Positions 3,550 to 61,402 of a stretch of DNA of 64,000 bases are shown here, one piece after another. The notes under the pieces are model-generated. The model was not told the origin of the DNA. It made no database searches and worked only from the letters and a program-made list of their open reading frames with translations. The DNA is from Ophiura sarsii (Eukaryota > Echinodermata > Ophiuroidea > Amphilepidida > Ophiuridae). The position numbers and the translations under genes were made by a program. How positions within the stretch are numbered: position 1 is the first letter of the stretch; each line of letters opens with the position of its first letter. The stretch is taken from contig CM069447.1 in the NCBI GenBank assembly GCA_035610835.1, forward strand, positions 63,149,060 through 63,213,059, written 5' to 3'.

Positions 3550-4401
3550 TCCAACTTTAACCTATTATAAAAAGAGTTCCCCAATAGTACATTTTTGTGC
3601 ATTTTTTTTGGTGATTATTGAATACTTCCTTAGTATTTTAAAACAAAAAACCAGCTTATACCTTCCATGTCCGGGTATCACCAAATCGACTGTAATCCCG
3701 ACTGATCTACATTGCCAAGGTATTGATCGGAGTGGTTAAAAGAAGCAGCTTTTGTGAAGTGAACAGAAGGACGAAATGTAATCAAAAAGTATAATTCTTA
3801 TTTGGTCATTTTAAGTTAATTATTTTATATGATACACAAATCATTTTCATTGTGCTACTAGTTGTGTTAATTTGTAATGCTTGCGTTTAGTTCATTCATG
3901 GAAATAATTGTACTTCCATGGTGTGATGCACTACTCGGGAATACCCTGTTACGTCTGCATCAACTTCAAACCAGCCATACCCAGGATGTTAGGTCAAATT
4001 CCAAATTATATCATTAAACTACGCATCTTTGATATGAGACATAAATTGGGTTATATTTGTAAAGCAGAAATACCACGATTTATGTATTGTATTCACTGCT
4101 ATTTGTGTAAATTAACCATTGGGTCATCATGGATATAATTATTGACTAACTGTTCCAGTGACATGACAAGCTTGCAAATTATCAAGATGGTTTATCATGC
4201 TGATATTGATAATAGAAGTAATAAAAAACATTATGGGATGCACCATATAATATACCGGGGTCGGCATTTGAAGTAAAACACTTGACCCACTATCCAGGAT
4301 AAAAAAACAACTTGACCCAATGATGATTTAAAATAAAAAATCTACCCCACCCAACTCAAAATAAAGGAAAACATTAAAAATGAAAAATAAAAGGCGCTGC
4401 C

Positions 4402-5446
4402 TTTGCCGGCCAAAAAAAATAAAATGTCCGACCTAAACTTACATCCCCCCATAGATATAAAATGGTGCGTACCTTAACTATAGACAAACATAACGTTTTA
4501 TCTAAAAAAGTTAAAACCTTGCTTGCTTTATACTGGTCGCCTGTATAGCCCTTGTGTAATTTCCTTGTCAAAAACCGCTCCCATCTGAGAGCCGCCCAAT
4601 CCGAGTAAGATCAGAGGATGGGGAGCAGTCTGATTGGGAGCAGTCACAGTGAGTGAACCCTCTATCAGTTCATAAAAGGGTCCAACTTCAGTAGACTAGC
4701 TTTATACAAGCTGTAGTACCGTAAAACAGTGTGAATAGGGACATGAGGGTAAATAGGGACAAAAATAGGAATAGGGACATGGGGCCCCATGTCCCTATTC
4801 ACCCTGTTTTAGAGTACACAAACTGGCCGGGTGAAATTTAAAAAACGTTTCCCATGTTTGTCCCTATTCACCCCCATGCCCCCCTACTCACCTCGTTTTA
4901 CGGTATTACTGTTATTTACACATTAACCATGGAAATTGTTTAAAACATTTGAGACATGTGTCGGTTTTACACATTAAACAATATGTAAATATATTTGTTA
5001 AAAAATAGTGTGTCATTTTTTGATTTTTGTGTATTTTAACCATTTGAACATATGAGACCTGTCATCACAAAACAAGAGTTGCCCCAATGATGGGGTATCA
5101 GTGGTACACGCCAGGTAAACTTATCAGTTAGTGGTAATTGACATTTTCTTTAAATATTTCTTAACATGGGTGATATTACCATAGCAATTCCGTAAATGTT
5201 TACCCACGCTTAAATCTTTTATACCATGAAATAATATGCTTAACTGGACTAGTTGACCCACCCTCCCCTATGTCTGCCTCATATTTAAAATTGTTGTAGT
5301 AACATTTCATATCTTCTGATAAATTTATGTATGGCACACCACAGGTGTCATAAAATGGTGAGCTTAAAAACTGACCTCTAAGTCGTTTATATCTATGGGG
5401 GGATGTAAGTTTAGGTCGGACATTTTATTTTTTTTGGCCGGCAAAA
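4402..5446. repeat. Perfect 60-bp inverted repeat pair
   Basis: Bases 4402-4461 and 5387-5446 are exact reverse complements over 60 bases by eye, beginning tttgccggcc and ending atagatataaa. They are about 925 bp apart. The right member corresponds to a degenerate stretch in the opposite arm (near 22260-22310), so the left member looks like the added copy. Perfect identity in a decayed background suggests a recent insertion or gene conversion. Confidence 0.7.
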
Positions 5447-6050
5447 AAGAAAAGGATGGCACACAAAATTCTGGCGCAAAAAAACAATCTGGACAACATT
5501 TTAAAGCTTGCCACCATTTTGTTTAACTTTGCAGTTTTCTTAACTCCAAGGTATTGGTCATTATTTTAAACTGTATGCAATTATTTTTAACTCCGTTTAA
5601 TGACGCTTGTGATGTGTCATATTTATGTGCCTGTCTGTATAGATATGATATCAGTCATCACTGAATGGTATAAATCTGTTAGATGATACAGCTTTGTGTG
5701 ACCACTATTTATATGACGTTGTGTTACAAATGTTACATACATTCCTATCAAATATATGTAAATATACTTTTAAAATCATTGAAAGAGCTGTTCATAACTA
5801 TGAAATTTGATGGTACCATGTCTTGGTTATCACATACATGTAGAATACTTTATAGCAAATAACGTGTCCAAGAGAATTGGTGTTATTCGTTGTGTAAAGC
5901 ATTTTCTTCCACATCCAACTCTTGTGATGTTATCCAATGCTATTGTGATTCCTCATTTTGATTATGCCAGCACAGTATGGTCCAACTGTTCAAATTCATA
6001 TCAAGCAAGACATTTAAAAGTCTTACACAACCGTTAAGCCAGAACAATTT

Positions 6051-6400
6051 GTGATGCGATCTGTGAAAACCCGCCACATGTCGGGATTTTTCATATTGGA
6101 GATATTTGTATCATAAGAAAGCTGAATCTGTGCTGATTACAGAACTGTTTTGATCATTTTTCTACGATCACTACAAAAAAAGTTATGAGTGAATGATGGT
6201 TGTGATGTCATAAAAAGCTACAAAACAAGAAATCATGAAAACAGGCCATAAAAGATGCATAGTTCAATAGAATAACATTATAAGGCTAATTAGAAAAGTG
6301 ACTGAAGTAAGTTTTTGAAGGTGAAATTTCATAACAGGTGATGATATAAAGTATTAGAAATTAATTTTCTAAACAAAATATGAAAAAATAAAAATAAAAG

Positions 6401-6434
<34 letters not shown>

Positions 6435-6495
6435 TTACCCATAATCCCTATTTCACATTTTGCGACATCCGACGGGTTTTCACAGATCGCATCAC
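6051..6495. mobile_element. 445-bp MITE inserted in the LINE, TSD attt
   Basis: Terminal inverted repeats gtgatgcgatctgtgaaaac at the left and its complement at the right (6474-6495). It is flanked by attt at 6047-6050 and 6496-6499. Removing the element and one attt restores a continuous LINE reading frame across the site, which defines both ends. A 2-bp tt duplication with a one-base-longer TIR fits equally well. There is no coding capacity. Confidence 0.85.
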
Positions 6496-6539
6496 ATTTT
6501 ATCTGGTGATATCAGAACACCAATAAATGATATGATGAA

Positions 6540-6901
6540 CTTATTTTATTGGACAAAACTAAGTGATAGGTGGAAAATTCAAATAATTATTATCGTCAGC
6601 TTAATAAAATAATTGCCTAAATCATATATTTAACAAATTGAGATTTTTGCCTAAATCAGCTCTTTACCATCGTGCAGTTACAGTCCACGTAAATTGCCTC
6701 ACAACCTTTTGCAGTTTAAACTTATTTTATTGGACAAAACTAAGTGATAGGTGGAAAATTCAAATAATTATTATCGTCAGCTTAATAAAATAATTGCCTA
6801 AATCATATTTTTAACAAATTGAGATTTTTGCCTAAATCAGCTCTTTACCATCGTGCAGTTACAGTCCACGTAAATTGCCTCACAACCTTTTGCAGTTTAA
6901 A
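6540..6901. repeat. 181-bp tandem duplication, two copies
   Basis: 6540-6720 is repeated almost exactly at 6721-6901 (one visible substitution, atattt versus atttttt). The unit spans the junction between LINE sequence and the first 127 bp of the 6594-8331 element, so the duplication happened after that element inserted. Confidence 0.9.
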
Positions 6902-8331
6902 CTATGAACTAGATTAAATGGTGTTAAACCAGTTTTAAAACTTGTGCCAGAAAAAAACTGCATGGCTTCGAGTATCGCAAATTTATTTTGAAATATCATT
7001 TTAACACTGCCCGTGTAGAAAACAGGAATGATATGTAGAGAAAATAATTGTAGGTTCAGAAAAAGTATTTTCTCTGCTGGCTGATCATCTGAATTTCATA
7101 CTTTTATGTATTATTTTAGAGATAAATTTATCAATATTTAAGCCTTGTTGCAGGAAAAAAACTCTTGATAAATTGTGAGTGTAGCATTTTTCGGGAGAGG
7201 TATAATTTTATTTAAATAACACCTTTTGTACTTGCAGTCAATAAGTTGACAATAAAATACCAATTATCGCCTATCGAACGCCCAGAGTCACGCACACAGT
7301 CGGGCGTATTTTGGAAAATGGAAGATTTTTATTTTGGGATAGGGATATATTTGGGCCCTTTCGTAGCATTTACATATTAAATTGACCGCTAAATGTCCAT
7401 TGTCTAATCAGATTCCCTTTTGACATGCCAATAAAGGAGGGTCTTGGCAACACTTTAAAAAGAGTTACAGGTCTTTAGAACTACGCCATCATGAATATAG
7501 CGGTCTTCATATTGATCGTGAGAGTCAATTTCATGGACAGAAATTGGCCTGCTATTCCTTACATCTATGTACAAAAATAGAGCACCGCTACTGTTCCGGC
7601 TAACATTTCTTTTAAAAAATTGGATATAAGGAAGAAAAGTAAATACTCCCTGAGATGGTGAGGGTTATGGTGAATTTGAGCAAATAGTTTGGCTAAAACG
7701 AAAATAACTTGCAATCCTCCTATCCCTGTAGTACATAGTGTTTAGGAGAGGTCACGCACCAATTATGAGCTATGGGAGACACCTATGGTTAAAGTGTTTA
7801 TGTTAATATTCAACTCTAAATCGTGCTACTAAATTAAAAGGATTATTGCCTAAGTCATGCGTGTGACTTGGGCATATTTATTGCATTGCCTAAATCAAAA
7901 AGTGTGACTTGTGGGCAGTTTTGGAGACTAAATATTTAGACAGTCAAAGTGTTTTGTAAGTTTAGAAAGGTGGCTGTAGTGCCAGAGTCTGGATGTAAAA
8001 AAGGTAGAGTACTATAGTGAATTTCTAAGCACTTTTGTAATGTTAGAATGAGCGTAGATAAATTGCCTAAGTTAGTTTGTTGATGTAAAAGTGCCTAAGT
8101 AAAATAAACAACTGCCTAAGTCACAATGGTATAATGTTGTTGAAGTCATTTTAGTTGGTTATGTAATACTATTGAGACATGACAACATAGCCATAATTTT
8201 TGTCTTGTATCAACATGTTATTGTGCTTTAAATGGTTAATAAAAGTAACTAAGTAACAAAACTCTATTATTTTTTTTGTTTTTCTCAAAAGTAGTAAATA
8301 TCACGTAGGCAATTATTTTATTAAGCTGACG
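6594..8331. mobile_element. 1.7-kb TIR element in the LINE, TSD ttat
   Basis: The left end cgtcagcttaataaaataat matches, in reverse complement, the right end at 8305-8331. Both are flanked by ttat (6590-6593 and 8332-8335). LINE coding sequence resumes beyond it. The motif tgcctaa(a/g)tca recurs inside at about 6614, 6649, 7849, 7893, 8064 and 8115. No protein is visible, so it is non-autonomous. Confidence 0.75.
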
Positions 8332-9349
8332 TTATTTTATTCAAATGTTTAAAAGATATAAGTCCAACCTATTGATCATCCAATTTTGAATTTGTACATA
8401 CCTATCACAATCATACTACTAGGAATCGTTCAAGTAATTTACACTTTAATCATTCCTAAAATCAAATCAAACTCTGGTATGCGCACTTTTCTTTTCAGAT
8501 CTATTTATGGAACAATTTATCACCATCTATTCGTATTGATTTAGAAAATATGTCACTTGGTCAATTTAAATCCTATATTTCCACTGTATCATAATTGAAT
8601 AATATCATAATTTGTATTTGTATTATATTTAAACGCTGTAACATTTTTATTTTTATGTATTTATGTATGTATCGAAATGAGGGCCTGCTTAGAAAGCAGT
8701 GCAAGTCACTGAAGCATATTACCCTCAATAAAGAAAGCACAAATAAATAATATTATAATAATATGAAGTCAAAGTAGAAAATGCTGTTATTATAAAGTAT
8801 TTCAGTACATATTATATTCGGCATTCATCGGGTACCCAATGAAGGCCCATGTCCAAACATTCTGTACGATAAATACTTTGTAATCACAGTATTTTCTACT
8901 TGTGACTTCATATTATTTAATACCGACGCAGCTTAATACCGACGCAGCTTCTCTGTTATAAGTATACTTGCATTTTACTGTGAAATATACTGTTGTGATT
9001 AAAATATAGACAACGCTAACATTCGTATCTGTAGTGATTCTTTAAAATTGCAGCATGTGTGAATAAAATTGAATCTATTTACAAGACAATCTCAATATTC
9101 ATTGTCAGACAACTCTTTTTTCTTCTCATGGGCCTATTCGGCCACCAGTACATCTTTTAATCATTTTGACTCAACTGCTCAACTTGAAAATGTTAAATGT
9201 GATTCATTCTGACTCACATACTTTCATGTTACTTAAAACAGAGATAAATCCACATTTTGATCAATTTAATGCCACCCCCCCCCCCCCCCCCCAAAAAAAA
9301 AGAGGTTCTTTTGCCTATGAAATGTGATATTATTTTAAAATAAAGTGTA

Positions 9350-9802
9350 TATACAGGATGTGCCAAAAGTTTCAAAACCATTTTAAAGATTTGTATCCCT
9401 CTCTTTAAAATAAGTCACATTATTCACATTCCATTCATGTGGTATGGATTCAAAAAAGGTTTTCACTATGTTCATCGGGATGTTCATAATAAGGATTATA
9501 TCAATCTGAAATTAAAAATTATCCTTGTAGAGAACTCTTCTCTTCCCTACCACTTTCTGTTTGTCTCATTCTTGACTTTATTCAGCTCATTATGACGCTT
9601 TTATAGAAAGCGTAGTTTAACAATTCGGGAAACTTCCGCCTGTATTTGGACAAGACAGACAGCTGTTATTGTAAGTTGGGTACCAAAATAATCCTCAAAG
9701 TGTTTTCTATCCAAATATATATTCAATTTTATACTGCGAATTATTTCACCTGGGATACAAAGGATTGAAAAGGTTTCGAAACTTCTGGGACACCCTGTAT
9801 AT
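9350..9802. mobile_element. TACAGGGTG-ended MITE, ~450 bp
   Basis: The left end tatacaggatgtgccaaaag and the right end (9765-9802), read in complement as tatacagggtgtcccagaag, form a TIR of about 35 bp continuing into a tttcgaaacc block. Two other inverted pairs with the same termini but different interiors lie at 18286-18962 and 49199-50240. The interior shows no gene. Confidence 0.75.
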
Positions 9803-9803
9803 A

Positions 9804-10244
9804 AAGCAATGGAAATACCCACATGACTTTCCACCGTGTAGAACACCCGGGATGGACAAAAAATGCAACTTGGATTTTTTTTCTTCAGCTTTTCAGGACG
9901 ATCGCGTACACTTGTTCATAATGTTTACTGTTCACAATATAAGTTTTACGTTTTAAGAGGGAGTGGGATTCTTTGAACATACATGTATAGTCACCCCAGG
10001 GTGATGATCTTTGCCGACATAGTTGTTAATTAAGTTCATTTGTCAACTCTGGGTAATCACAGTCTGCTTAAATATCATATCCCAAAATGGTAATTGAACA
10101 TAGTCAACCAAGGGTGATTTTTGCAGTCATCTATCAAGTTCAATTTTGTCAGTCTAATTATGTGTAGCCATGCATAGGCGACATGCAAACACCTAAAACC
10201 AAATTATTACCGGATGGAGAGTCGTGTGGGTATTTCCATTGCTT
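9804..10244. mobile_element. 441-bp TIR element
   Basis: aagcaatggaaatacccaca at 9804 recurs in reverse complement at 10221-10244. The element starts 2 bp beyond the preceding MITE. The interior holds two or three loosely similar units around cc(a)agggtgat. No coding sequence is seen. Confidence 0.7.
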
Positions 10245-10887
10245 ACTTTCTTATCACTTAAAACCTTTTTTTTAAATGTTTGGGATTTTGTCCTACGCCC
10301 CTTTCATTTGTCTCTTTTTACCAGCCCAATTGTGTTTTACTTGTGTTTTGATTATTTTCTGAGTTGCAGTGAACAATTGATTGGCCTATCAAAGCTCTCT
10401 ACTTTTAAAAATGTTGGGAACAAAATTATGACATATTTTCGGCCAAAAAAAGGCTGATTTTACATGATTTATGAGAAAAATATCAGCTCAAATTAAATTC
10501 TAGAAAAATGCATTAAGTTGGTCAGTCGGGCCCATAGAACAGGGTTTTTTCTTCTTTTTTCCTCGCCTTTATTCAAATTTTTAACTTCCCGATTACTTTC
10601 ATATCACTTTAAACCCTATTTCAACGAGACATTTTGAGATATATCCACATTTTGCTCGATTTTACCCGCAAATTGGGGTTCTTTTGCTTCGATTTGATCT
10701 GATAAGACATTTTCACACAAAAATGAAGGGTATAATATATATTTTTCATTTACATAATAGTTCTAAAAGCAAACAGGTCCATTCGCAAACATTTACTTTC
10801 AGAAGTTTTGCTTTCCTTCACATTTAGACGTTGAATCCTAAATCTAGTATATTACAAATTCAGGCTGATATACAGCTACAGGCAATA
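10245..10887. repeat. Arm sequence with a degenerate satellite-like monomer
   Basis: 10560-10670 weakly matches the adjacent satellite: it has cgattactttcatatcactt where the monomer has cgatgactttgatatcactt, followed by gagatatatccacatttt where the monomer has gagataaatccccaattt. 10795-10890 matches the right arm at 21390-21480 inverted. This is the transition from arm to array. Confidence 0.5.
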
Positions 10888-13420
10888 TACAGGCAATTTT
10901 AATCAAAATGCACATTTCAAAATTTTAACAAGAATATTTCTTTGAAATGATTCATTTGGACTCGCCGATGACTTTGATATCACTTATAACCAATTGCAAC
11001 CAAAAAATGAGATAAATCCCCAATTTTTATGGGTTAACACTATAATCCTAAATCGAGTGAAATCGATCACGGACACTTTTCGGCAAGTTTAATCAAAATG
11101 CACATTTCAAAATTTGAACAAGAATATTTCTTTGAAATGATTCATTTGGACTCGCCGATGACTTTGATATCACTTATAACCAATTGCAACCAAAAAATGA
11201 GATAAATCCCCAATTTTTATGGGTTAACACTATAATCCTAAATCGAGTGAAATCGATCACGGACACTTTTCGGCAAGTTTAATCAAAATGCACATTTCAA
11301 AATTTGAACAAGAATATTTCTTTGAAATGATTCATTTGGACCCACCGATGACTTTGATATCACTTATACCCAATTGCAACAAAAAATTGAGATAAATCCA
11401 AAATGTTGATGGGTTTACACTAGAATCCTAAATCGAGTGAGATCGATCACGGACACTTTTCGGCAAGTTTAATCAAAATGTTAACAAGAATATTTCTTTG
11501 AAATGATTCATTTGGACTCACCGATGACTTTGATATCACTTATAACCAATTGCAACCAAAAAATGAGATAAATCCCCAATTTTTATGGGTTAACACTATA
11601 ATCCTAAATCGAGTGAAATCGATCACGGACCCTTTTCGGCAAGTTTAATCAAAATGCACATTTCAAAATTTTAACAAGAATATTTCTTTGAAATGATTCA
11701 TTTGGACTCACCGATGACTTTGATATCACTTATAACCAATTGCAACCAAAAAATGAGATAAATCCCCAATTTTTATGGGTTAACACTAGAATCCTAAATC
11801 GAGTGAGATCGATCACCGACACTTTTCGGCAATTTTAATCAAAATGCACATTTCACAATTTTAACAAGAATATTTCTTTGAAATGATTCATTTGGACTCA
11901 CCGATGACTTTGATATCACTTATAACCAATTGCAACCAAAAAATGAGATAAATCCCCAATTTGTATGGGTTAACACTAGAATCCTAAATCGAGTGAGATC
12001 GATCACCGACACTTTTCGGCAATTTTAATCAAAATGCACATTTCAAAATTTTAACAAGAATATTTCTTTGAAATGATTCATTTGGACTCACCGATGACTT
12101 TGATATCACTTATACCTAATTGCAACAAAAAAATTGAGATAAATCCAAAATGTTGATGGGTTTACACTAGAATCCTAAATCGAGTGAGAACGATCACGGA
12201 CACTTTTCGGCAATTTTAATCAAAATGCCCATTTTCAAAATTTTAACAAGGATATTTCTTTGAAATGATTCATTTGGACTCACCGATGACTTTGATATCA
12301 CTTATAACCAATTGCAACCAAAAAATGAGATAAATCCCCAATTTTTATGGGTTAACACTAGAATCCTAAATCGAGTGAGATCGATCACCGACACTTTTCG
12401 GCAATTTTAATCAAAATGCACATTTCAAAATTTTAACAAGAATATTTCTTTGAAATGATTCATTTGGACTCACCGATGACTTTGATATCACTTATAACCA
12501 ATTGCAACAAAAAAAAATGAGATAAATCCCCAATTTTTATGGGTTAACACTAGAATCCTAAATCGAGTGAGATCGATCACGGACACTTTTCGGCAATTTT
12601 AATCAAAATGCACATTTCAAAATTTTAACAAGAATATTTCTTTGAAATGATGCATTTGGACTCGCCGATGACTTTGATATCACTTATAACCAATTGCAAC
12701 CAAAAAATGAGATAAATCCCCAATTTTTATGGGTTAACACTAGAATCCTAAATCGAGTGAAATCGATCACGGACACTTTTCGGCAAGTTTAATCAAAATG
12801 CACATTTCAAAATTTTAACAAGAATATTTCTTTGAAATGATTCATTTGGACTCACCGATGACTTTGATATCACTTATAACCAATTGCAACCAAAAAATGA
12901 GATAAATCCCCAATTTTTATGGGTTAACACTAGAATCCTAAATCGAGTGAGATCGATCACCGACACTTTTCGGCAATTTTAATCAAAATGCACATTTCAA
13001 AATTTTAACAAGAATATTTCTTTGAAATGATTCATTTGGACTCACCGATGACTTTGATATCACTTATAACCAATTGCAACCAAAAAATGAGATAAATCCC
13101 CAATTTTTATGGGTTAACACTAGAATCCTAAATCGAGTGAGATCGATCACCGACACTTTTCAGGAATTTTAATCAAAATGCACATTTCAAAATTTTAACA
13201 AGAATATTTCTTTGAAATGATTCATTTGGACTCACCGATGACTTTGATATCACTTATACCCAATTGCAACAAAAAAATTGAGATAAATCCAAAATGTTGA
13301 TGGGTTTACACTAGAATCCTAAATCGAGTGAGAACGATCACGGACACTTTTCGGCAATTTTAATCAAAATGCCCATTTTCAAAATTTTAACAAGGATATT
13401 TCTTTGAAATGATTCATTTG

Positions 13421-14956
13421 GACTCACCAATGACTTTGATATCACTTATAACCAATTGCAACCAAAAAATGAGATAAATCCCCAATTTTTATGGGTTAAC
13501 AATTTAACACTAGAATCCTAAATCGAGTGAGATCGATCACCGACACTTTTCGGCAATTTTAATCAAAATGCACATTTCAAAATTTTAACAAGAATATTTC
13601 TTTGAAATGATTTATTTGGACTCACCGATGACTTTGATATCACTTATACCCAATTGCAACAAAAAAATTGAGATAAATCCAAAATTTTGATGGATTTACA
13701 CTAGAATCCCAATCGAGTGAGATCGATCACGGACACTTTCTGGTAATTTTGATCAAAATGCACATTTCAAAATTATAACAAAAATATTTCTTTGAAATGA
13801 TTCATTTGGACTCACCGATGACTTTGATATCACTTATAACCAATTGCAACCAAAAAATGAGATAAATCCCCAATTTTTATGGGTTAACACTAGAATCCTA
13901 AATCGAGTGAGATCGATCACGGACACTTTTCGGCAATTTTAATCAAAATGCACATTTCAAAATTTTAACAAGAATATTTCTTTGAAATGATTCATTTGGA
14001 CTCGCCGATGACTTTGATATCACTTATACCCAATTGCAACAAAAAAATTGAGATAAATCCAAAATTTTGATGGATTTACACTAGAATCCCAATCGAGTGA
14101 GATCGATCACGGACACTTTCTGGTAATTTTGATCAAAATGCACATTTCAAAATTATAACAAGAATATTTCTTTGAAATGATTCATTTGGACTCACCAATG
14201 ACTTTGATATCACTTATAACCAATTGCAACCAAAAAATGAGATAAATCCCCAATTTTTATGGGTTAACAATTTAACACTAGAATCCTAAATCGAGTGAGA
14301 TCGATCACCGACACTTTTCGGCAATTTTAATCAAAATGCACATTTCAAAATTTTAACAAGAATATTTCTTTGAAATGATTTATTTGGACTCACCGATGAC
14401 TTTGATATCACTTATACCCAATTGCAACAAAAAAATTGAGATAAATCCAAAATTTTGATGGATTTACACTAGAATCCCAATCGAGTGAGATCGATCACGG
14501 ACACTTTCTGGTAATTTTGATCAAAATGCACATTTCAAAATTATAACAAAAATATTTCTTTGAAATGATTCATTTGGACTCACCGATGACTTTGATATCA
14601 CTTATAACCAATTGCAACCAAAAAATGAGATAAATCCCCAATTTTTATGGGTTAACACTAGAATCCTAAATCGAGTGAGATCGATCACGGACACTTTTCG
14701 GCAATTTTAATCAAAATGCACATTTCAAAATTTTAACAAGAATATTTCTTTGAAATGATTCATTTGGACTCGCCGATGACTTTGATATCACTTATACCCA
14801 ATTGCAACAAAAAAATTGAGATAAATCCAAAATTTTGATGGATTTACACTAGAATCCCAATCGAGTGAGATCGATCACGGACACTTTCTGGTAATTTTGA
14901 TCAAAATGCACATTTCAAAATTATAACAAGAATATTTCTTTGAAATGATTCATTTG
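13421..14956 (+). repeat. 768-bp higher-order repeat, two copies
   Basis: 13421-14188 and 14189-14956 are near-identical four-monomer blocks. Shared marks include caccaatgac, the expanded junction gggttaacaatttaacacta (13493 and 14261) and matching monomer-type order. The second copy stops matching the next one where caccgatgac replaces caccaatgac. Confidence 0.8.
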
Positions 14957-15000
14957 GACTCACCGATGACTTTGATATCACTTATAACCAATTGCAACCA

Positions 15001-16140
15001 AAAAATGAGATAAATCCCCAATTTTTATGGGTTAACACTAGAATCCTAAATCGAGTGAGATCGATCACCGACACTTTTCGGCAATTTTAATCAAAATGCA
15101 CATTTCAAAATTTTAACAAGAATATTTCTTTGAATTGATTCATTTGGACTCACCGATGACTTTGATATCACTTATAACCAATTGCAACCAAAAAATGAGA
15201 TAAATCCCCAATTTTTATGGGTTAACACTAGAATCCTAAATTGAGTGAGATCGATCACCGACACTTTTCGGCAATTTTAATCAAAATGCACATTTCAAAA
15301 TTTTAACAAGAATATTTCTTTGAAATGATTTATTTGGACTCACCGATGACTTTGATATCACTTATACCCAATTGCAACAACAAAATTGAGATAAATCCAA
15401 AATTTTGATGGATTTACACTAGAATCCCAATCGAGTGAGATCGATCACGGACACTTTCTGGTAATTTTGATCAAAATGCACATTTCAAAATTATAACAAG
15501 AATATTTCTTTGAAATGATTCATTTGGACTCACCGATGACTTTGATATCACTTATAACCAATTGCAACCAAAAGATGAGATAAATCCCCAATTTTTATGG
15601 GTTAACACTAGAATCCTAAATCGAGTGAGATCGATCACCGACACTTTTCGGCAATTTTAATCAAAATGCACATTTCAAAATTTTAACAAGAATATTTCTT
15701 TGAATTGATTCATTTGGACTCACCGATGACTTTGATATCACTTATAACCAATTGCAACCAAAAAATGAGATAAATCCCCAATTTTTATGGGTTAACACTA
15801 GAATCCTAAATCGAGTGAGATCGATCACCGACACTTTTCGGCAATTTTAATCAAAATGCACATTTCAAAATTTTAACAAGAATATTTCTTTGAAATGATT
15901 TATTTGGACTCACCGATGACTTTGATATCACTTATACCCAATTGCAACAACAAAATTGAGATAAATCCAAAATGTTGATGGATTTACACTAGAATCCCAA
16001 TCGAGTGAGATCGATCACGGACACTTTCTGGTAATTTTGATCAAAATGCACATTTCAAAATTATAACAAGAATATTTCTTTGAAATGATTCATTTGGACT
16101 CACCGATGACTTTGATATCACTTATAACCAATTGCAACCA
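15001..16140 (+). repeat. 570-bp higher-order repeat, two copies
   Basis: Three-monomer blocks recur 570 bp apart. Variants unique to these blocks, tgaattgattcatttgg (15131 and 15701) and caattgcaacaacaaaattg (15370 and 15940), mark the correspondence. Block edges are approximate. Confidence 0.7.
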
Positions 16141-18285
16141 AAAATGAGATAAATCCAAAATGTTGATGGGTTTACACTAGAATCCTAAATCAAGTGAGAT
16201 CGATCACGGACACTTTTCGGCAATTTTAATCAAAATGCCCATTTTCAAAATTTTAACAAGGATATTTCTTTGAAATGATTCATTTGGACTCACCGATGAC
16301 TTTGATATCACTTATAACCAATTGCAACCAAAAAATGAGATAAATCCCCAATTTTTATGGGTTAACACTAGAATCCTAAATCGAGTGAGATCAATCACCG
16401 ACACTTTTCGGCAATTTTAATCAAAATGCACATTTCAAAATTTTAACAAGAATATTTCTTTGAAATGATTCATTTGGACTCACCGATGACTTTGATATCA
16501 CTTATAACCAATTGCAACCAAAAAATGAGATAAATCCCCAATTTTTATGGGTTAACAGTTTAACACTAGAATCCTAAATCGAGTGAGATCGATCACCGAC
16601 ACTTTTCGGCAATTTTAATCAAAATGCACATTTCAAAATTTTAACAAGGATATTTCTTTGAAATGATTCATTTGGACTCACCGATGACTTTGATATCACT
16701 TATACCCAATTGCAACAAAAAAATTGAGATAAATCCAAAATTTTGATGGATTTACACTAGAATCCTAATCGAGTGAGATCAATCACGGACACTTTTTGGT
16801 CATTTTGATCAAAATGCACATTTCAAAATTTTAACAAGAATATTTCTTTGAAATGATTCATTTGGACTCACCGATGACTTTGATATCACTTATAACCAAT
16901 TGCAACCAAAAAATGAGATAAATCCCCAATTTTTATGGGTTAACACTACAATCCTAAATCGAGTGAGATCGATCACAGACACTTTTCGGCAATTTTAATC
17001 AAAATGCACATTTCAAAATGTTAACAAGAATATTTCTTTGAAATGATTCATTTGGACTCACCGATGACTTTGATATCACTTACAACCAATTGCAACCAAA
17101 AAATGAGATAAATCCCCAATTTTTATGGGTTAACACTTATTAATTCTAAATCGAGTGAAATCGATCACGGACACTTTTCGGCAATTTTAATCAAAATGCA
17201 CATTTCAAAATTTTAACAAGAATATTTCTTTGAAATGATTCATTTGGACCCACCGATGACTTTGATATCACTTATACCCAATTGCAACAAAAAAAATTGA
17301 GATAAATCCAAAATGTTGATGGGTTTACACTAGAATCCCAATTGAGTGAGATCGATCACGGACACTTTCTGGTAATTTTGATCAAAATGCACATTTCAAA
17401 ATTATAACAAGAATATTTCTTTGAAATGATTCATTTGGACTCACCGATGACTTTGATATCACTTATAACCAATTGCAACCAAAAGATGAGATAAATCCCC
17501 AATTTTTATGGGTTAACACTAGAATCCTAAATCGAGTGAGATCGATCACGGACACTTTTCGGCAATTTTAATCAAAATGCACAATTCAAAATTTTAACAA
17601 GACTATTTCTTTGAAATAATTCATTTTGACTCGCCGATGACTTTGACATCACTTATAACCAATTGCAATCAAAAATGAGATAAATCCCCAATTTTTATGG
17701 GTTAACACTAGAATCCTAAATCGAGTGAGATCGATCACGGACACTTTTCGGCAATTTTAATCAAAATGCACATTTCAAAATTTTAACAAGAATATTTCTT
17801 TGAAATTATTAATTTGGACTCGCCGATGACTTTGATATCACTTATAACCAATTACAACAACAAATTGAGATAAATCCACAATTTTGATGGATTTACACTA
17901 GAATCCTAAATCGAGTGAGATCGATCACAGACACTTTTCGGCAATTTTAATCAAAATGCACATTTCAAAATTTTAACAAGAATATTTCTTTGAAATGATT
18001 CATTTGGACTCACCGATTAATTTGATATCAATTATAACCAATTGCAACAACAACAAAATGAGATAAATCCCCAATTTTGATGGGTTAACGTCAGTCACTA
18101 TAGAGTCCTTTTCATCAAAATGCATATTTCAAAATTGGGGGGGGGGGCTGGTCAGTGATCATACCAAGCGGGTATGCATCCGCATCCAAAAAGAATTGCG
18201 AAAGGTCCAGATTTCACCACACGACGTCATCGACGTCGACGTCTTTTCGAAAAGGGGTACTTAGGGGGCATTTGCACTTTAGGGG

Positions 18286-18962
18286 TATACAGGGTGACCC
18301 AGAAAATGTTGAACCCAAAAATCACAAACTTAAAAATAAAATAAAATATGGCATTCTGTTTTCAGAAGTTATGTAAACAGTTTATTCAGCTTTCTGGAGA
18401 ACTTTAGATCATGTAAATTAGCCTTACCAAACTAAAGATACACTTGATTGTGTGACAGGGGATGTTTTTGCCCTTTTGTAAAAGTGAAAAAATTGTAACT
18501 TGGTTCAGATATGAAACTTACGAGCGTAATTGTGCTATTTTTAAATAGCCCGCCCAAAACATATCGACTGAAAGTATCTGTTCAACTGGAACAGGTGTTA
18601 GTTGCTTTAAAGTGTTTGTATTGATCTTTAAACAATTCACTTCTGATATACATTACAGTCACAACAAAAGATCCCGATAAAAGTAAAAACAAATCGGAAA
18701 GAAATGGTTTCAAACAGGCACATGTTCTGCTCATGTATCATGAAACCATTTTTTTGCACTTCACTTACACTACAAAACAACACTTCTTACACACAAAATT
18801 ACACGTATTTTAAGTTTCGTGTGGCCTATTTTTATGATCTAAAATGTTTCAGAAAGTTAAATGTATGGTGCACATAGCTGGTGAACGAGTTATGCAATAT
18901 TTTGTTATTTTAATGGTAAAAGAGAAATATTGAATTTTGTGATTTTTGGGTCACCCTGTACT
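18286..18962. mobile_element. TACAGGGTG-ended MITE, ~675 bp
   Basis: The left end is tatacagggtgacccagaaa and the right end is its complement near 18935-18962; gttgaacccaaaaatcac on the left pairs with gtgatttttgggtcaccctg on the right. Non-coding interior. It lies just outside the right edge of the satellite. Confidence 0.75.
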
Positions 18963-19636
18963 ATATGTTGTATGTGTGACTTTTCAATAAACATGCATAT
19001 CTGTATGAATGTCACATGATTATGAATTAAGATTATTTTGAGCATTACTATATTACGCCATTAAGGGGTGCATTATTGTATTGAGTGTTAACACCGTTTA
19101 GGGTAGGGTTTCCCGGTTTGTACATGTATGTGTTATGCCATTTAGGGGTATCAAAATAGTGTTCTGGTTTACCATTCCATTTCAGAGGTGATTGGATGCT
19201 CATGTGAATCCACTTGGTATGTTCACTGACCCCCCCCCCTTTCGGGTCAAAATGAATCACTTCAAAACTATATGCAAGTTAAAATTTTATAAAATGTTTG
19301 CAAATGGACCAATTTGTGCAGATTATGGTGACATTTTAGGTAAAAAACCCAGACCGACCTTACTTGACAGGTCCGTCCGTCTGTGAAATAGGGTGGTTTT
19401 TTCGTCGCCTATAAACGGTACATTTGAGTCAAAATTATAACAAAACCTACAATCTTGGAAAAAAGTCCTTGGAACGCTTAACACATTTTGAGCATCATTA
19501 TGCAGATTTTTTTTGATCTTTAAATGATGTTTATTTTGTTAAGAGTGAATAGGACATCTTAGACAGCAATTCTTCCTTCCCCACACCCAATCGATCAATG
19601 TCGGGACAACTTGAACACAGCTGCTGAAGACATCAA
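18963..19636. other. Unassigned spacer
   Basis: No exon, RNA gene or TIR pair recognised. A few phrases of the type gtttagggtagggttt and aggggtgcattattg occur near 19060-19160, similar to the phrases at 25140-25560. Confidence 0.4.
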
Positions 19637-20151
19637 AGGGGCACTAAGAGATCCTTCATGTAGGAAGCCCTCAATTTTTCAGAAGTTCGGTTTTTCGCAT
19701 TATTATGTAATGCTTATATACGTTCTAACTACCACCCAAAATTATAGAGCTTAATTCGCAGTATTTCATGTGAAATTCATGGATTTGATAGCGTTTTGAG
19801 TTTCGATGTAATCACATTGAAACTCCCTAAATTCATCTAAAACGGCACAGATGGCTTCTTATTTATTTGTTTCATATTTATTTTAAATAACCTTGAAGAC
19901 CACCCATGGCTTGTTGCGTGATGCATAGTCATGATCTCCCCGATTCAATTGGTGGTGATTTTGAACCAAAATACAAAAAGAAAGAAAGTGGAAAGCACTA
20001 ATATACCCTCGGAAATGCTGAAAAAATGACTTCATTTTTTATTTTTACTGATTTTTTTGGAAGAAATCTTATATGAGAGGGTTTCTATTGCATCTATCTA
20101 AACAAGGTGAAAATATTGAATTTCATTTTTGAGAAATCTCTTTGTGCACCT
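19637..20151. mobile_element. TTAA-type MITE, ~515 bp
   Basis: The left end aggggcactaagagat and the right end (20130-20151), which reads in complement aggtgcacaaagagat, form the TIR. The right flank is TTAA (20152-20155); the left flank is tcaa, one base off TTAA. It abuts the next element and shares its TTAA. Confidence 0.65.
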
Positions 20152-20155
20152 TTAA

Positions 20156-21320
20156 AGGGACAAAGAGATGTGTTGGAGTCTGCGCCCTCAATTATGATAA
20201 CTGGGATTGGTATATTTTTACAATTATGTTAGGTACATGTATGAATTTACACCTACATGTATATAAGGATTAAGAAAAATCATGCAGCTCTCTTTGTACA
20301 ACAAAATGTTGATTAAAAAATGCTGATCTTACCAAGATCAGCATTTAACAGTCAGACAGTGTCCCCCTGCAGCACGCGTGATAAATAACGCGAACCATAT
20401 TTGTGACCATCCAGCCCAAAGTTGTAAAGTCGGCATAGCATGTACTGAGATATGGCTCAGTACAATAAACATTTCACTAAAAACAATAGGAAACGAAGGA
20501 ATTCTCAATGGATTTATTGATATTCTGCCTATTTTAACATAATAGGTCTTAAAATTGTCACATTCCAGAGTTTGAGTTGCGTAACTCCAATGGTTCTTAT
20601 TTTAGAAGCACAGAGGTCCCCACTCAGTTGTACACAAACTGGCGGGTGGTTAACCACCCATGTTTTTACAGTGTAATTCACCACATTTTAGCCTATAATT
20701 TCTAAGTGGAACATTTCCAGCCCCCAAGATTTTACAGACATGATGAAAAAAATATGGGGATTCATAGCCAAACAAAAGTGATCTGAACATACACCTTTAA
20801 ATAGAAGGCGCTTTTAAGAAAAGGTTCCATAAATAGTGATGGTATTGTTTTAATCAAGTTTGCTGTGGTTTTTTTGTGAGTAGAAACAACAATAATGGCA
20901 ATTTTAAAGGTAGATGACCCGATCACATTTTCGTAACACAGAATTATTTCAAACATACGGAGATTTTCATATTATATGAAAGCTCGTATTTTTCTCATCA
21001 TCATACTGAAATTTGACGGCCTAATTCGGTATAATGACAGAGAAATCGATGAAATAGCGTTGAATTACCGCGAATGGTGGTTACCAGCGATATAGTTTGT
21101 GTACTACTCAATGGGTACAGTTCACAGCATTTTGTGCGTCCAAAATAAGAACCATAATAGCTATGCATCTCAAATTTTGGGACACGACGTTTTTAAGGAT
21201 GACCTTTCATGTAGAATAGAAAACTTCAAGTTGAAAATCGGAACATCTACCTTTAATGTTCATCTTAAATTCTGAAGTAAATTAATTTAAAAAAAATCTT
21301 CAACACTACTTCGTGTCCCT
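20156..21320 (+). mobile_element. TTAA-type element with nested TTAA insertions
   Basis: Flanked by TTAA at 20152-20155 and 21321-21324. The left end is agggacaaagagatgtgttg; the right end in complement is agggacacgaagtagtgttg. A copy without the nested element lies inverted at 63001-63387. Comparison places inserted sequence at about 20405-20804 and 20908-21252. The first of these is a truncated relative of the element at 28770-29151. A 13-bp stem hairpin with a 3-base loop (20318-20346) lies in the left part. Confidence 0.75.
20908..21252 (+). mobile_element. 345-bp MITE with TTAA target duplication
   Basis: Ends aggtagatgacccgatcaca and, at the right, the complement of aggtagatgttccgat. 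TTAA flanks it at 20904-20907 and 21253-21256. The copy at 63001-63387 has a single TTAA at this point, an empty site. An inverted, slightly fuller copy is at 42640-42996. Confidence 0.85.
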
Positions 21321-21389
21321 TTAACATTCTTCAACATTGCACAGGTGTGTTAGTTTCCTGTTGCGTTCAAAGACTATTTTCCAGGATTG

Positions 21390-24010
21390 TAGCTCTATTT
21401 CAGCCTGATTGTCATACTAGATTTAGGATGTCTAGTGTTAAACGTCTTTAATTGTGAAGGAAAACAACACTTTAAAACAAAAAGATTGCAATTGACATGT
21501 TATGTTTGTGGATTTATCTCTGTTTTAAGTAATATGAAAGTACGAGAGTCAGAATGAACGACATAAAACATTTTCAAGTTGAGCATTTGAGTCAAAAATG
21601 TACTGGTGGCCGAATGGCCCATGGGAAGAAAAAGAGATGAGAATTGAGATTGTCTTGCAAATTAAATAGATTCAATTTTATTCACACATGCTGCAATTTA
21701 AAGAATCACTACAGATACAAATGTTTAGCTTTATCTATATTTTAATCACAACAGTATATACAAGTATACTCATAACATAGAAGCTGCATCGGTATTAAAT
21801 AATATGAAGTCACAAGTAGAAAATGCTGCGATTACAGTATTTATCATACAAAATGTTCGGACATCAGCCTCCATTGGGTACCTGATGAAGGCCGATTATA
21901 CATGTATGTACTAAAATACTTCACAGCATTTTCTAGTTATGACTTCATATTTGATACAAAGTATACTTATATACTTTATAGGAATGTACAAGTAGCATTT
22001 GTAACACAATGTCATATAAATAGTGGTCACACAAAGCTGCATCAGAACACAATAATATCTGCATAAAAGATTTATACCATTTAGTGATGACTGATATCTA
22101 TACAGAGAGGCACATAAATATGACACATCACAAGCGTAATGAAACGGAGTTACAAATAATTGCGTCCACCTTCGATTTAAAAGATCTGTCAAGCAAGCTT
22201 TAAAAACACGCTGCAAATTAAATGAATTGACACAGAGTTAAACAAATTACGTCCAGATTGTTTTTCGTGTGCCACCCTTTTATTTTTTTCTAAACTTTAG
22301 GTCATTTTTTAAACTCACCATTTGATGACATCTGTGGCATGCTATACATAAATATCAGACCATGTGGAATGTTACTACAATGTTCAGTTTTAAATATGGG
22401 GCAGACATAGGGGAGGGTGGGGCAACTGGTCCAGTTAAGCATATTTCATGGTATAGAAGATCAAAGCGTGGGTAAAAACTTACCGAATTGCTATGGTATA
22501 ATCACCCATGTTAAGAAATATTCAAAGACAATGTCAATTACCACTTACTGAAAAGTTCACAGGCATGGACCACTTATACCCCATCATTGGGGCAACTGAT
22601 CCAATATGAGACCTGTTACCACAAAAATCAATACAAAATAAAGGAACTTTAATTTGAATTTTGACATCTTGCATATCATTTTAATGCTTGTTTTCAGGGT
22701 ATTTTTAATCTGGACAAACCTGAAAATAAAAGCTTAAAGCTCACATCGACCATAGACGAACTGGTCATTCACTTGTTCACTTGATGACAGACAGTACATA
22801 GTTAACATGGGGAAATTGTTACCTTGGCCTTGTGGTAGCTCGTTTAACTCTCATTTTGTGATGACAGATCTCATATGTTCCAATAATTAAAAGAGGGGTC
22901 CTGCAAGCACAACATTATGCATTATATGTTAGACAAATGACTATCGAGCCCATCTTTAGTAATTATATAGAGCAAAACACCACACTTATGACAAAAACAA
23001 ATAAAAAGCCGCCATCTCTCAACATGCAATTTTTAAAATTCGCAGCAATACAAAGTCTCGGTGTCGATGAAGTCAAAGTTATACAATGCATATGCGCAAA
23101 TTTGAGCACCGATATCTTTATTCGTTTTTGTGACTAGTATGATGTTTAATTGTTCTATATAATAATTTAAACAAATAATGCTCAATGTTGTGCTTGCAGG
23201 ACCCCTCCTCTAAAATACACAAAAATCAGAAATTATATTAACAACACATTTACATATTATTTAATGTGTAAAATCAATACATGTATCATGAAATCCATAT
23301 TTTAAACAGTTTTCGTGGTTAATGTGCAGGCCCGTCAGATGGGGGGTGGGGGGCGATGGTGGCGATCACCCCCCCCCCGCCCCCCTTGAAAATCTTCCCC
23401 GGAAAATTTGACCAAAAACAGAGAAAATCCCCCCTCCCCAAAAAAATCCCCCTCAAAAATATCTCCAAAAACTACTTCCGGTATTTCTGTGCGTCGACCA
23501 ACAAGAAAGGTAAACTATGACACCATAATGGAACAGAAAAATTAGAAAATCAGCGTGTCCCCGACGGAAAAAAACTAGCTCTATCACTTCCGGTGATTTT
23601 TTTTGAAAACGCCCCCCCCCCCCCCCCCCTTTGAAAAAAGTGTCTTATGGGCCTGATGTGTAAATAGCAGTAATACTAAGCTTGTATAAAGCAATCAAAG
23701 TTTTCTACTACCTTTTTTAGATAAAACGTTATGTTTGTCTATATATAATACTTTTTTTTAAACATATTATCAATATCATAATTTAGTACTTATGATAAAC
23801 TATTTTGATAATTGGCAAGCTTGTCATATCACTGGAGAAGTTAGTCAATATAAACATGATGACCCAATGGTTAATTTACACAAATGGCAGTGAATACAAT
23901 ACATGAATCGTGGTATTTCTTCTTTTCACATATGGCAGTGAATACAATACATGAATCGTGGTATTTCTTCTTTACAAATATATTTACAGTACAGACACAA
24001 TTCAAATAAT
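21390..24010 (-). repeat. Right arm of the giant inverted repeat (element A, minus copy)
   Basis: Reverse-complement homologue of 4040-10890, lacking the LINE and the two 9.3-10.2 kb MITEs. Its inner end (21400-21550) includes ctagatttaggatgtctagt and gtggatttatctctgtttta. Both are complements of satellite phrases (aacactagaatcctaaatcg and gagataaatcc). A 48-bp tandem duplication containing atggcagtgaatacaataca lies at 23887-23980, and a C-rich low-complexity block at 23330-23640. Confidence 0.75.
22893..23210. mobile_element. 318-bp MITE, TSD taaaa
   Basis: TIRs gaggggtcctgcaagcacaa at the left and the matching complement at the right (23183-23210). It is flanked by taaaa at 22888-22892 and 23211-23215. 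The opposite arm at about 5030-5050 shows the uninterrupted site gtgtattttaaccatttgaa. The interior is repeated in diverged form at about 24940-25130. Confidence 0.85.
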
Positions 24011-24386
24011 AAAGATATCATTCCTAATAATAATATAGAGGTTTAAACCATCATAAAAGCAAGTTCATGTCATATTGTAATTATTCAATAGCAGAAATTG
24101 TGGTATTAGGCCCAAATTGTCTAAGACCCAGAAAGAATATCAATTTCTTCACATTCTATACAATTTCATTATTGAGTCAAGTTTCAATGACACTACATGT
24201 ATCAACTAATTTTCCAAATGAAAGGCATATTATGCGATCTATCTGTGATTTTTTCCTAGAATTGCATTATTTGTGTCAAATTACATTTATAACCATCATA
24301 AACCATGAAACTAAAATATCTTGTAAGGTTCTTAATTACTTTAAAATCACAGTTTGAATACATTGAAATAACCTGTCAGAGTCCAG

Positions 24387-24583
24387 GGTCAGAAGTTTGT
24401 CAAAGTTTGCGAGAATTCTTTTAGATTTTCGCAAAAAGATTTTGCAAGAATTTATGGATTCTTTTCCATTAAAATAATGTGTTAATAGACAGATTATCTA
24501 TGAAAATAAATTTGGATTCTCGCAACTTAACCGGCGGGAATCTTAGCGAGAGTGGATTCTTGTTGAATTTCTGACCCTGAGAG
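24387..24583. mobile_element. Small TIR repeat, ~200 bp
   Basis: gagtccagggtcagaagttt at the left and aatttctgaccctgagagtc at the right pair imperfectly. The interior repeats gagaattctt / ggattcttt phrases. It could be a MITE; no clear target duplication is visible. Confidence 0.45.
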
Positions 24584-25610
24584 TCTGCTCCAACAACTTA
24601 TTTCCTCATTTTTTCCATTCGTAAATAGAATTCCATGGTTTGACACCGTGTTGCCGCGTTTTACAGTGTTTCCTGCTACAATCGCAACTGTACACAAGTG
24701 GACAAAATACTATAATGCCTTAAGATGAAAATGAATGGAAATATGTTGAGAAATTCATCAGATTTCCATTATGAGTTAGTAAAGTTCTGTGATGGTTTAG
24801 TTTCATGTTTAATTCTATAATTTGACCAAAAGTCGCTGCAATGTACATCCGCAACTACGGAATTGCCCCTTTACGGTGGGCTGGTAGTTTTTGACAATTC
24901 ATAGACAAAAGAACTGGAAATGAAAAATATAATTATCGAGTCTAAATTACGTAATTATATACATTGTAGAACAAAACATCATGTACTTATGACAAAAACT
25001 AATAAAAACTGTCACTTCTCAACATGCAATTTTTAAAATGTGTGACGATCGAAAGACCCGGTCCGGTGTCCATGAAGTCATAGTTATACAATGCATGATG
25101 CACTTACGCAAATTTAAGCACCAATAACCATGACATCAACGACACTGGGAAAGGTGATGTATGCATGTACATCACTTAGGGTATCAAAAACTGCAAAAAT
25201 TGGGGAAAAGGGTATGTTTTGAGAACTTCCAATATGTGTTTAGGGTATTTTTTCAAGATATAAAAGGAACATAAAAATCCCCCTGTAAATCAAAACATTG
25301 ATTATACATTAAAGTATTAATTGACATGTGCATTTGATAAAAACACATGAAAATGTTAATTTAAAACATAAAAGAGTTTTGATGTATTTATTGATGGTCT
25401 GTAGGGTATGATAACAAACAAAATGGTTATATTTGTTTAGGGTATAAAAATGGCTGAATACTTGTTTAGGGTAGGACAAATTGTTAAAATACTTGTCTAG
25501 GGTGTCTGTGGCGCATGAGAGAAATACTTGTTTAGGGTCCATTTTCAGAGGGCATACATGAGCATTATATCCACCTTTGAATACAAGTGCCCCCCCCCCC
25601 CTCCCGGGAG
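24584..25610. repeat. Diverged MITE copy and tttagggt-rich low-copy repeats
   Basis: 24940-25130 is a diverged copy of the interior of the 22893-23210 MITE. From about 25170 to 25545 the phrase acttgtttagggt or close variants recurs at 30-70 bp spacing (for example 25239, 25435, 25462, 25493 and 25527). The unit resembles the plant telomere word but spacing is irregular and the sequence is internal, so it is not a telomere. A C-rich run sits at 25588-25600. Confidence 0.5.
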
Positions 25611-25611
25611 G

Positions 25612-26812: not shown

Positions 26813-27215
26813 CTACATGTAGCATGTTTCCCAGTACCTGTGTCAAGATAGATATCATTAAAAATAGTTTAATACATTGATTTGATTGAAGTTTACTCAT
26901 CATAATGGATTTTCAAAACTATGTATTATTCACAACCCCATCTGCTGAGACCATTTTATTCACCTTGCCACCCACCACTCACAGTCACAAGTAATTTTGT
27001 CCAGTAACAAGTCAAGTCAATTATCCTTTTATGCAACCGATCAATTGGTTCACTGCAACTCAGAAAATATTCATAATACAGGTAAACAAAAATGTGATGA
27101 GATTAAGCAAAATCAGTCTTGAAGTCAAAAATATTGAATTCAGTTTTCTACTTGATTTTCAAAAAAAGGTTTATTTACAGTTTCATTTTGCAGAAAACCC
27201 CATCTCAAATGGTGA
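26813..27215. other. Unassigned sequence
   Basis: AT-rich sequence. The reading frames here are short and carry no recognisable motif or splice-bounded exon. Confidence 0.4.
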
Positions 27216-27595
27216 CATATCGATAGTCCGACTGTTCTATAGTCAGATGGGTTCCATAGTCAGAAGGCTCTATAGTCTGAAAAAGGTTATATAGTCTGAA
27301 AAAGGCTCTATAGTACGAAGGTTCTATAGTCCTAATTTCCTAAAATAATTATGGTTTCGTAGTACGAAGGTTCTATAGTACTACGAACATTCTATCGTCC
27401 AAAAATAAAAAAGCCCAGTTCTTTAGTCAGAATACTATGTTCATGTTCTATCCGATTATTGAAAAAGGTTCAGTAATCCAAATACTTAAAAAGCTTCATT
27501 AGTGCGAATATTTAATGAGCTTCTTTAATCTGAATTTAAAAAAAGGTTTTTTAGTCCCGAACTTTAAACAGGTTTGATACTCCGAAAGTCATAAA
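27216..27595. repeat. Degenerate ~20-35 bp repeats of ggttctatagtcyga
   Basis: Units such as gttccatagtcaga, gctctatagtctga, gttctatagtacga and, more diverged, gttcagtaatcca and gcttctttaatctga follow one another. Similarity is highest at the left and decays to the right. Confidence 0.7.
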
Positions 27596-27599
27596 CTAG

Positions 27600-27745
27600 T
27601 GGAGGGGTATCGCCAGGTCAAAAATTTGAGCGGGGTAGGGTACCGCCGATTCAGAAACTTGAGCAGGGCAGGGCTAGCAGGGGTCCGCCGAGTCAGAAAC
27701 TTGATCGGGGTAAGGGTATTTGTCAGTTCAGGAAGTGCATCTCAG
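27600..27745. repeat. ~50-bp degenerate tandem repeat, three copies
   Basis: Three units share cgccgagtcagaaacttgag followed by a cggggtagggta-type G-rich stretch (27608, 27650 and 27697). It is distinct from the neighbouring repeat. The short open frame across it is a by-product. Confidence 0.6.
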
Positions 27746-27989
27746 CCGGCCGGTTGCACGTTTACATTTTGCAACAAAACTCCCCTTCAACAGACTCCCG
27801 GGTGAGCCCTGTGATTCCACGCATCATCATAATTGTTCTGTGAATTTGGTTGAGGCAGTGTTTTGACAGCGCTTAGGAATAAAAGATCCCCACCCTCCCC
27901 CTCACAAACGGTCTGGTTTTATTTGATCTATACTTAATACTTATTTTATAATGTATGATTCATTGTAAGAGTATTTCACAAAGTCAATA

Positions 27990-29151: not shown

Positions 29152-29155
29152 TTAA

Positions 29156-30363: not shown

Positions 30364-30383
30364 TTGAATATTAAGACAAGGTA

Positions 30384-61400: not shown

Positions 61401-61402
61401 TG

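Follow-up and report, generated by a model that had tools for sequence, protein, structure and literature searches.

How does a satellite array begin, and can its early stages still be read at the place where it grew, when satellite beginnings are usually inferred from finished arrays? The question is raised by a stretch of 64,000 nucleotides from the brittle star Ophiura sarsii (contig CM069447.1, positions 63,149,060 to 63,213,059; hereafter the window), in which an array of 190-bp units lies between long inverted arms. An earlier note on this DNA had taken it for a giant fold-back element whose internal segment had expanded into a satellite, the satellite having grown from the inner end of an arm. 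We find that the window probably contains a single copy of a non-coding, dispersed element (the giant element), which is longer than 40 kb, has a fixed right end and carries an array that was expanded in one lineage of copies. The satellite has been expanded in this element, which may or may not be where the monomer first arose, since the monomer is also present at other dispersed loci.

The array itself consists of two features.

10892..18089, plus strand: tandem array of 190-bp units, 38 units, from its period and from unit cutting
18094..18136, plus strand: partial monomer at the array's right edge, profile match of 9.9 bits

The array has a period of 190 and 37.8 copies, and the 38 monomers of the earlier note could be cut from it, with a mean pairwise identity of 0.919 (gaps counted) and a minimum of 0.670; it is homogeneous and runs head to tail, as satellite DNA does. 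At 7.2 kb it is the longest array that we examined, and further monomer matches are clustered at C1:149.660-149.665M (here and below, loci are given by contig and position).

To ask whether such arms and arrays occur elsewhere, as the earlier note had proposed for arms with zero, one or many monomers, the genome was searched (1,573,662,873 bases in 748 contigs). Among the best 40 of 1297 candidates, a 601-bp arm probe was found whole at at least nine places (86-100%, the window included), and a second, opposite-strand match (probe bases 1-255) lay 12-17 kb away at at least eight; these eight are seven of the nine whole-probe places and C8:60.91M, where the left match covers bases 300-601. Six copies were fetched for comparison, together with 10-kb parts of three more and the outer parts of two. 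An array stands in the same slot in eight of the nine other copies (all six fetched first and two of the three fetched later), so that arms elsewhere do carry monomers. When units were counted by anchor motifs (n anchors making n-1 full spacings), the window gave 38 anchors, C7:8.46M 24, C1:2.66M, C12, C1:65.1M and C5 six each, C131 seven and C8:60.91M 37. There are thus copies with few units (5-6 in each of the five short-array copies) and with many (about 23 in C7:8.46M and about 36 in C8:60.91M); C7:8.52M has six anchors, its array running directly into a 100-N assembly gap.

Homology among the copies continues past 24010, to 31017 in the window, to 30993832 in C12 and to 51760 in C131. With a probe from this right edge, C131 and 12 other places, on ten contigs in all, match from base 1-5 to base 758-771 (all 25 candidates scored), the other matches listed being partial. 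Six of the copies with this right end lie at C10:60.98M, C5:3.42M, C2:80.74M, C747, C1:40.02M and C11:7.40M. At each of five right ends examined we found CACGACANACGT, then AC (three ends) or CC (two), and then mutually dissimilar sequence. The element therefore shows dispersed copies with a fixed end (13 right edges) and unrelated flanks (five). The window stands outside these 13 places: the right-terminal 850 bp of its copy are missing, and from 31018 another dispersed family continues. As a separate observation, the start of that other family (31018-33000), which is 85-99% like pieces on many contigs, begins exactly where the giant element stops.

Between these limits, the window's copy and its arms are made up as follows.

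3811..31017, plus strand: the window's copy of the giant element, from BLAST homology to the six fetched copies and to the outer parts of C12 and C131, and from the genome probe
4053..5770, plus strand: left arm, outer blocks, inverted match to 23982-21958
8760..9254, plus strand: left arm, inner block, 80% inverted match to 21951-21507
10772..10880, plus strand: left arm, innermost block, 75% inverted match to 21501-21388
21388..23982, minus strand: right arm, inverted match to the left arm
24941..26033, minus strand: outer right-arm blocks, with inverted partners in the left parts of other copies and none in the window

Self-BLAST of the window bore out the collinear, homologous arms that had been seen to face each other around the array: the left arm (4053-10880) and the right (21388-23982) match in inverted blocks of 75-96%; the series starts outermost at 4053-4198 / 23933-23792 and passes through 8760-9254 / 21951-21507 to 10772-10880 / 21501-21388. 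The arms are 91.0% identical over 1326 aligned sites (gaps left out). The proposed limits of 4040 to 24010 proved too narrow, since the copy runs from about 3811 to 31017 (as far as it can be matched to the short-array copies), and in other copies the arms extend outward to the window equivalent of about 27000. In C12 (numbered from 30945001) inverted pairs run inward from 7614-7899 / 36258-35956; no inverted pair beyond this outermost one was found when the outer left (2361-8000) was compared with the outer right (35900-48832), and the right end stands about 12.6 kb outside it. Of the fold-back proposal, then, the multiple copies, the inverted arms and the occurrence of copies with few or many monomers stand, and the terminal position of the arms is not supported by the sequence examined.

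Old monomers, some of them long decayed, lie within the arms and beside the array.

9173..9270, plus strand: decayed monomer in the left arm, from shuffles, profile and wraparound alignment, at the same place in seven of seven copies
10560..10720, plus strand: half-decayed monomer, from shuffles, profile and wraparound alignment, at the matching place in seven of seven copies
21427..21587, minus strand: decayed monomer pieces in the right arm, from shuffles and profile (weak alone), at the same place in seven of seven copies
19244..19289, minus strand: opposite-strand monomer fragment, from shuffles, profile and copy comparison
18140..18189, plus strand: left half of an inner inverted pair, beside a G run, also in the C7:8.46M copy
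19192..19239, minus strand: right half of that pair, partner of 18140-18189

Arm pieces were aligned locally to a doubled monomer, using two unit types and 300 dinucleotide shuffles each. The right arm scored 40 with the commoner type (shuffle maximum 31) and 27 with the other, a score reached by 15 of 300 shuffles. On the left, 9150-9262 scored 38 with the commoner type (maximum 30) and 34 with the other (reached by 1 of 300), and 9150-9340 scored 38 with both (maxima 35 and 36). The half-decayed monomer that had been read at 10560-10670 gave 49 and 64 over 10530-10760 (shuffle maxima 30 and 30), and 19200-19330 gave 48 and 43 on the minus strand (maxima 29 and 29); 10760-10891 was weak by itself (27 and 20, reached by 4 and 60 of 300). 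A monomer profile built from 36 overlapping unit pairs, scanned against the window with the array masked, had its top five matches at 20.2, 14.2, 10.2, 9.9 and 6.7 bits and its sixth at 1.5 bits; the five all lie inside the element, on the plus strand to the left and on the minus strand to the right, as predicted. The right-arm match (6.7 bits, E 0.057) is weak when taken alone, because the reversed window reaches 4.5 bits. By wraparound alignment, 9140-9348, 10531-10771, 19192-19400 and the right arm came above all 100 shuffles and 10772-10891 was weak (reached by 3 of 100); there was no monomer signal by this method in 10245-10530 (reached by 17 of 100) or 19400-20158 (38 of 60), and opposite-strand controls were reached by 62, 42 and 5 of 100. 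The monomer phrases recognised earlier at the inner ends of the arms thus align better than shuffled sequence does, on the strands foreseen.

Comparison of seven copies, the window included (three matches listed per pair), shows that both old inverted arms hold decayed 190-bp units, the intact array standing on the left only; tandem-repeat units within inverted arms are also what a Tetris-like foldback element would have. A second half-decayed unit, further in, is present in six of the seven copies, the window being without it. Two features are additional to those of the earlier note. The minus-strand fragment at 19244-19289 is shared by the window with C7:8.46M and C8, and none of the five short-array copies shows it; it is 93% identical to the second decayed unit, 88-90% to the first and 80-82% to array units, and therefore the right side there mirrors the decayed units, not the array. 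The inner inverted pair scores 49 versus 29 in 500 shuffles of base pairs, and is shown for the window and C7 copy only.

The short arrays allow the order of events to be approached. Among the five short copies, identity is 0.994 between units at the same position (50 comparisons), 0.948 between units at different positions (200 comparisons) and 0.948 between units within a copy. A tree of 127 units groups each of positions 2-5 as a clade made up of exactly five units, and position 1 as a clade of six, which includes C131's extra unit. The short arrays are thus orthologous unit by unit, and therefore a central, left-side array of about five units was present before those five copies separated and spread. 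Left and right arms diverge by K 0.087-0.099 (three copies measured); between copies, right arms differ by 1.7% and 2.9%, and the window differs from C7:8.46M by 1.1%. This suggests that arm duplication came first, then the short array and then the spread of copies.

In the long lineage (window, C7:8.46M and C8:60.91M) the array in the same slot would then have expanded to about 38, 23 and 36 units. Growth is likely to have occurred by unequal exchange or slippage between units, because identical units recur within arrays (33 distinct of 37 in the window, 19 of 23 in C7:8.46M), because the C8 copy (L031:3483-8481) has a satellite block of 14 spacings and 2,590 bp followed by a block 97.6% like it, and because unit order differs between the window and C7. 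The copies may have spread as mobile or as duplicating segments, by transposition or duplication. Units of the short lineage begin GGTAATTTTGA-like in 25 of 26 cases, as do four units (picked by that motif) from a second monomer-bearing family described below, and units of long arrays mostly have the start GGCAA(G/T)TTTAA (28 of 37 in the window, 20 of 23 in C7, 33 of 36 in C8 and 3 of 5 in C7:8.52M); this favours the short state as the older.

Several observations weigh against an element with a fixed right end and an array expanded in one lineage. The C15:65.72M copy has no array in the expected 10 kb, only two short matches to the window, and our array counts cover the window and nine other copies. 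When the tree is rooted on the four second-family units, the long-unit clade of 122 includes 21 short-lineage units, and rooting at the midpoint recovers neither lineage as a clade; the polarity of array size is accordingly not proven, and the direction of change in the long arrays is less sure than the order found for the short ones. No common left end was found on comparing the C12, C131 and C1 copies, and no target-site duplication at the edges compared, where the left edges are not the true left end. No transposase frame was found among the frames of the examined copies. Finally, the left neighbour of the window's copy (1127-3890) is 97.9% like that of C7:8.46M, as would be seen in duplication of a larger segment. 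Two candidates for the left end failed: C1 runs across the edge common to C12 and C131, and the candidate lying next outward proved to be an 825-bp repeat of high copy number.

The most serious competing explanation concerns the monomer and arises from its wider distribution. One monomer gave at least 437 matches in the genome (best 40 of 174 candidate regions) and, among the matches listed, loci outside the giant element are 88-92% like a window monomer (C17, C18, C14, C4, C12:38.97M, C10:20.70M, C3, C5:55.57M, C13, C9, C6 and C1:149.66M). For the right-end copies C11:7.40M and C1:40.02M the list has 19 matches at C11:7414790-7418832 and one at C1:39988660. Two outside loci that were fetched have 1,069 bp of array in common at 99%, and apart from one dispersed repeat nothing in their flanks matches the array-masked window; against the C12 copy the flanks were compared over the best 12 matches. 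The piece at C17:61.69M (array plus flank, 1,350 bp) recurs at full length at at least seven other places with 97-99% identity, and a third group of at least ten loci is 81-82% like it (both among the best 40 of 1076 candidates). At least two further groups of dispersed loci thus contain the monomer, and the giant element need not be its birthplace, because other repeat families carry it.

The monomer could be native to a smaller dispersed family with a central array (loci on C17, C18, C14, C3, C9, C12, C10 and C11), from which insertion or exchange could have brought it, perhaps repeatedly, into the giant element. We regard this as a real possibility, falling a little short of an even chance. 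The recurring C17 array and flank, the absence of that flank from the array-masked window, the third group, and the identity of second-family units to the short lineage (mean 0.929) as compared with the long (0.916) all speak for it; against it, the decayed units in both arms of all seven copies put the repeat in the giant element before the copies spread, and no insertion boundary of such a family was seen around the array, the second-family flank having been compared with the C12 copy over its best 12 matches. The decayed units do not decide the matter: those of C12 score 88 and 77 against the short array and 93 and 95 against the second family, and since decayed arm units score about alike against all monomer groups they are silent on which host came first. 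We suggest, tentatively, that the 190-bp unit is a module carried and amplified by several unrelated large dispersed elements of one genome. If so, different carriers would seed satellites at many chromosomal sites, the giant element being one such carrier, and its copies with about 5, 23, 36 and 38 units would record the expansion stepwise.

A second explanation, that the copies are segmental duplications which carried the array along and not products of transposition, is possible but rather doubtful. It would account for the left neighbour common to the window and C7, for the length of more than 40 kb, and for the lack of target-site duplications, and no terminal inverted repeat was found in the sequence examined; in the fetched C12 sequence nothing pairs in inverted orientation with the final 200 bp of the right end, though a partner may lie further out, the left end not having been located. 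There is also no long frame of the element's own. Within the six fetched copies no stop-to-stop frame exceeds 188 amino acids (aa). Including the outer part of C12 brings in frames of 224 and 161 aa, far to the left, which may be pieces of reverse transcriptase. A 139-aa frame (25615-26031, minus strand) is kept in C131 and has nine relatives of unnamed function (60-69%), and the DNA beneath it (25672-26033) has its inverted counterpart in the outer left of other copies. When five open reading frames (ORFs) of the window were scanned against Pfam, two matches resulted, both below the curated cut-off; one protein search returned nothing. Duplication of segments does not readily explain why 13 places on ten contigs stop within one range of right-end bases, nor why five right ends have unrelated flanks. 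Near the left side of the C5 copy, C5:53525215-53525385 matches the terminal 200 bp of the right end at 81%, in the same orientation, and may be either a neighbouring copy or a terminal direct repeat.

That the monomer arose at the inner end of an arm, as the earlier note proposed, and that all other loci are derived from it, we now think unlikely. The decayed units in both arms are older than the array, and the arms differ by K of about 0.09, as compared with about 5% between array units, which is in its favour; the monomer is nevertheless spread among other families with other flanks, and the decayed units are no closer to giant-element monomers than to those of the second family, so that birth from the arm is not supported. 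The window array does begin only 12 bp from the end of the left arm, and its in-register start at 10892 was considered as a sign of growth from the arm. This sign was dropped: in C7:8.46M, whose left arm is 98.9% like the window's, some 2.5 kb separate the second decayed unit from the first monomer, and the start at 10892 is therefore secondary; a deletion between similar units would account for the missing 2.5 kb. Chance likeness of AT-rich arm ends to the monomer, or an artefact of assembly, might be raised on the strength of the right-arm profile match, but is very improbable given the shuffle tests, and is refuted by the copies elsewhere, on several contigs, which hold the same units at the same places (seven of seven).

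Satellites carried by mobile elements are already known, and what stands out for the giant element is the unusual clarity of the stages. Within a single element family there are decayed units, a stage of five units that stayed static at several loci and, in the same slot, expanded arrays, so that the step from part of a mobile element to satellite becomes datable against the copies themselves; the presence of the same unit in other families makes the precedence of carriers answerable by one rooted tree of monomers.

Among known systems close to this one is the foldback transposon Tetris of Drosophila virilis, with its TIR-220 repeats, to which the earlier note had pointed. Its inverted repeats are terminal, reach 1,735 bp and are accompanied by target-site duplications of 8-10 bp, and the tandem repeats are part of those terminal inverted repeats (PMC4079207). 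Tetris and the giant element are alike in being non-coding, in having inverted arms and internal repeats of about 200 bp that vary in number, and in forming longer satellite-like arrays as a few units inside the element expand (PMC4079207). In the giant element, unlike Tetris, the arms appear to be internal and are longer overall, only one side has the intact array, other dispersed loci share the monomer, and no target-site duplication was seen at the edges compared. Since neither terminal inverted repeats nor target-site duplications came to light, membership of the foldback group is unproven and we do not claim it.

In Galileo of Drosophila mojavensis there are tandem repeats of about 210 bp within the inverted repeats, which expand and contract independently in each arm and so resemble ours in changing in number; the Galileo arms are terminal, up to about 1.25 kb, with two or three repeats, as against giant-element arrays of up to 38 units (PMC3573991). 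The Helentron-type HINE elements of the Pacific oyster are dispersed and non-autonomous, with short satellite-like arrays between two flanking modules (PMC7492417). They share with the giant element arrays inside dispersed elements, and they make no target-site duplication, none having been seen in the giant element at the edges compared. Most of their arrays do not exceed 5 units, the longest having 29, and the elements have a 3' palindrome and subterminal inverted repeats; the giant element is unlike them in its long inverted arms and length of more than 40 kb (PMC7492417). The second monomer-bearing family may be closer to the HINE kind. In the open-licence literature we found no paper combining 'brittle star' and 'satellite DNA' and, judged by title and the start of the abstract, none describing the giant element.

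Two insertions interrupt the window's copy.

18288..18957, no strand: insert with inverted ends, present in the C7 and C8 copies and lacking from four of the five with short arrays
30384..30800, no strand: palindromic insert, from self-match and genome probe

The fifth short-array copy (C1:2.66M) could not be aligned at the place of the first. The second, of about 417 bp, is self-complementary and 96-99% like six other stand-alone places, and is absent from the other listed copies of the giant element. Later insertion was rejected for 9349-9803 and 9804-10244, each with inverted ends, and the stretch 9300-9600 belongs to the element because other copies hold it too. Insertion of a retroelement was likewise rejected for 5770-8760, which is at least partly left-side element sequence: 7778-8467 is present in four of five short-array copies, with a smaller part in the fifth (7778-8187) or in C131 (7834-8467). 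A 181-bp unit occurs twice, 99% alike, at 6538-6903.

Elsewhere in the window, a second tandem array, of 123-bp units with matches of 70-80%, occupies 33900-43700; an element at 42661-43001, which shows 95.6% similarity to 20903-21243 on the opposite strand, breaks into it. Short-period repeats of the ACGTATGTC type lie at 59466-62407, with direct copies of 88-89% and an inverted copy at 61801-62407.

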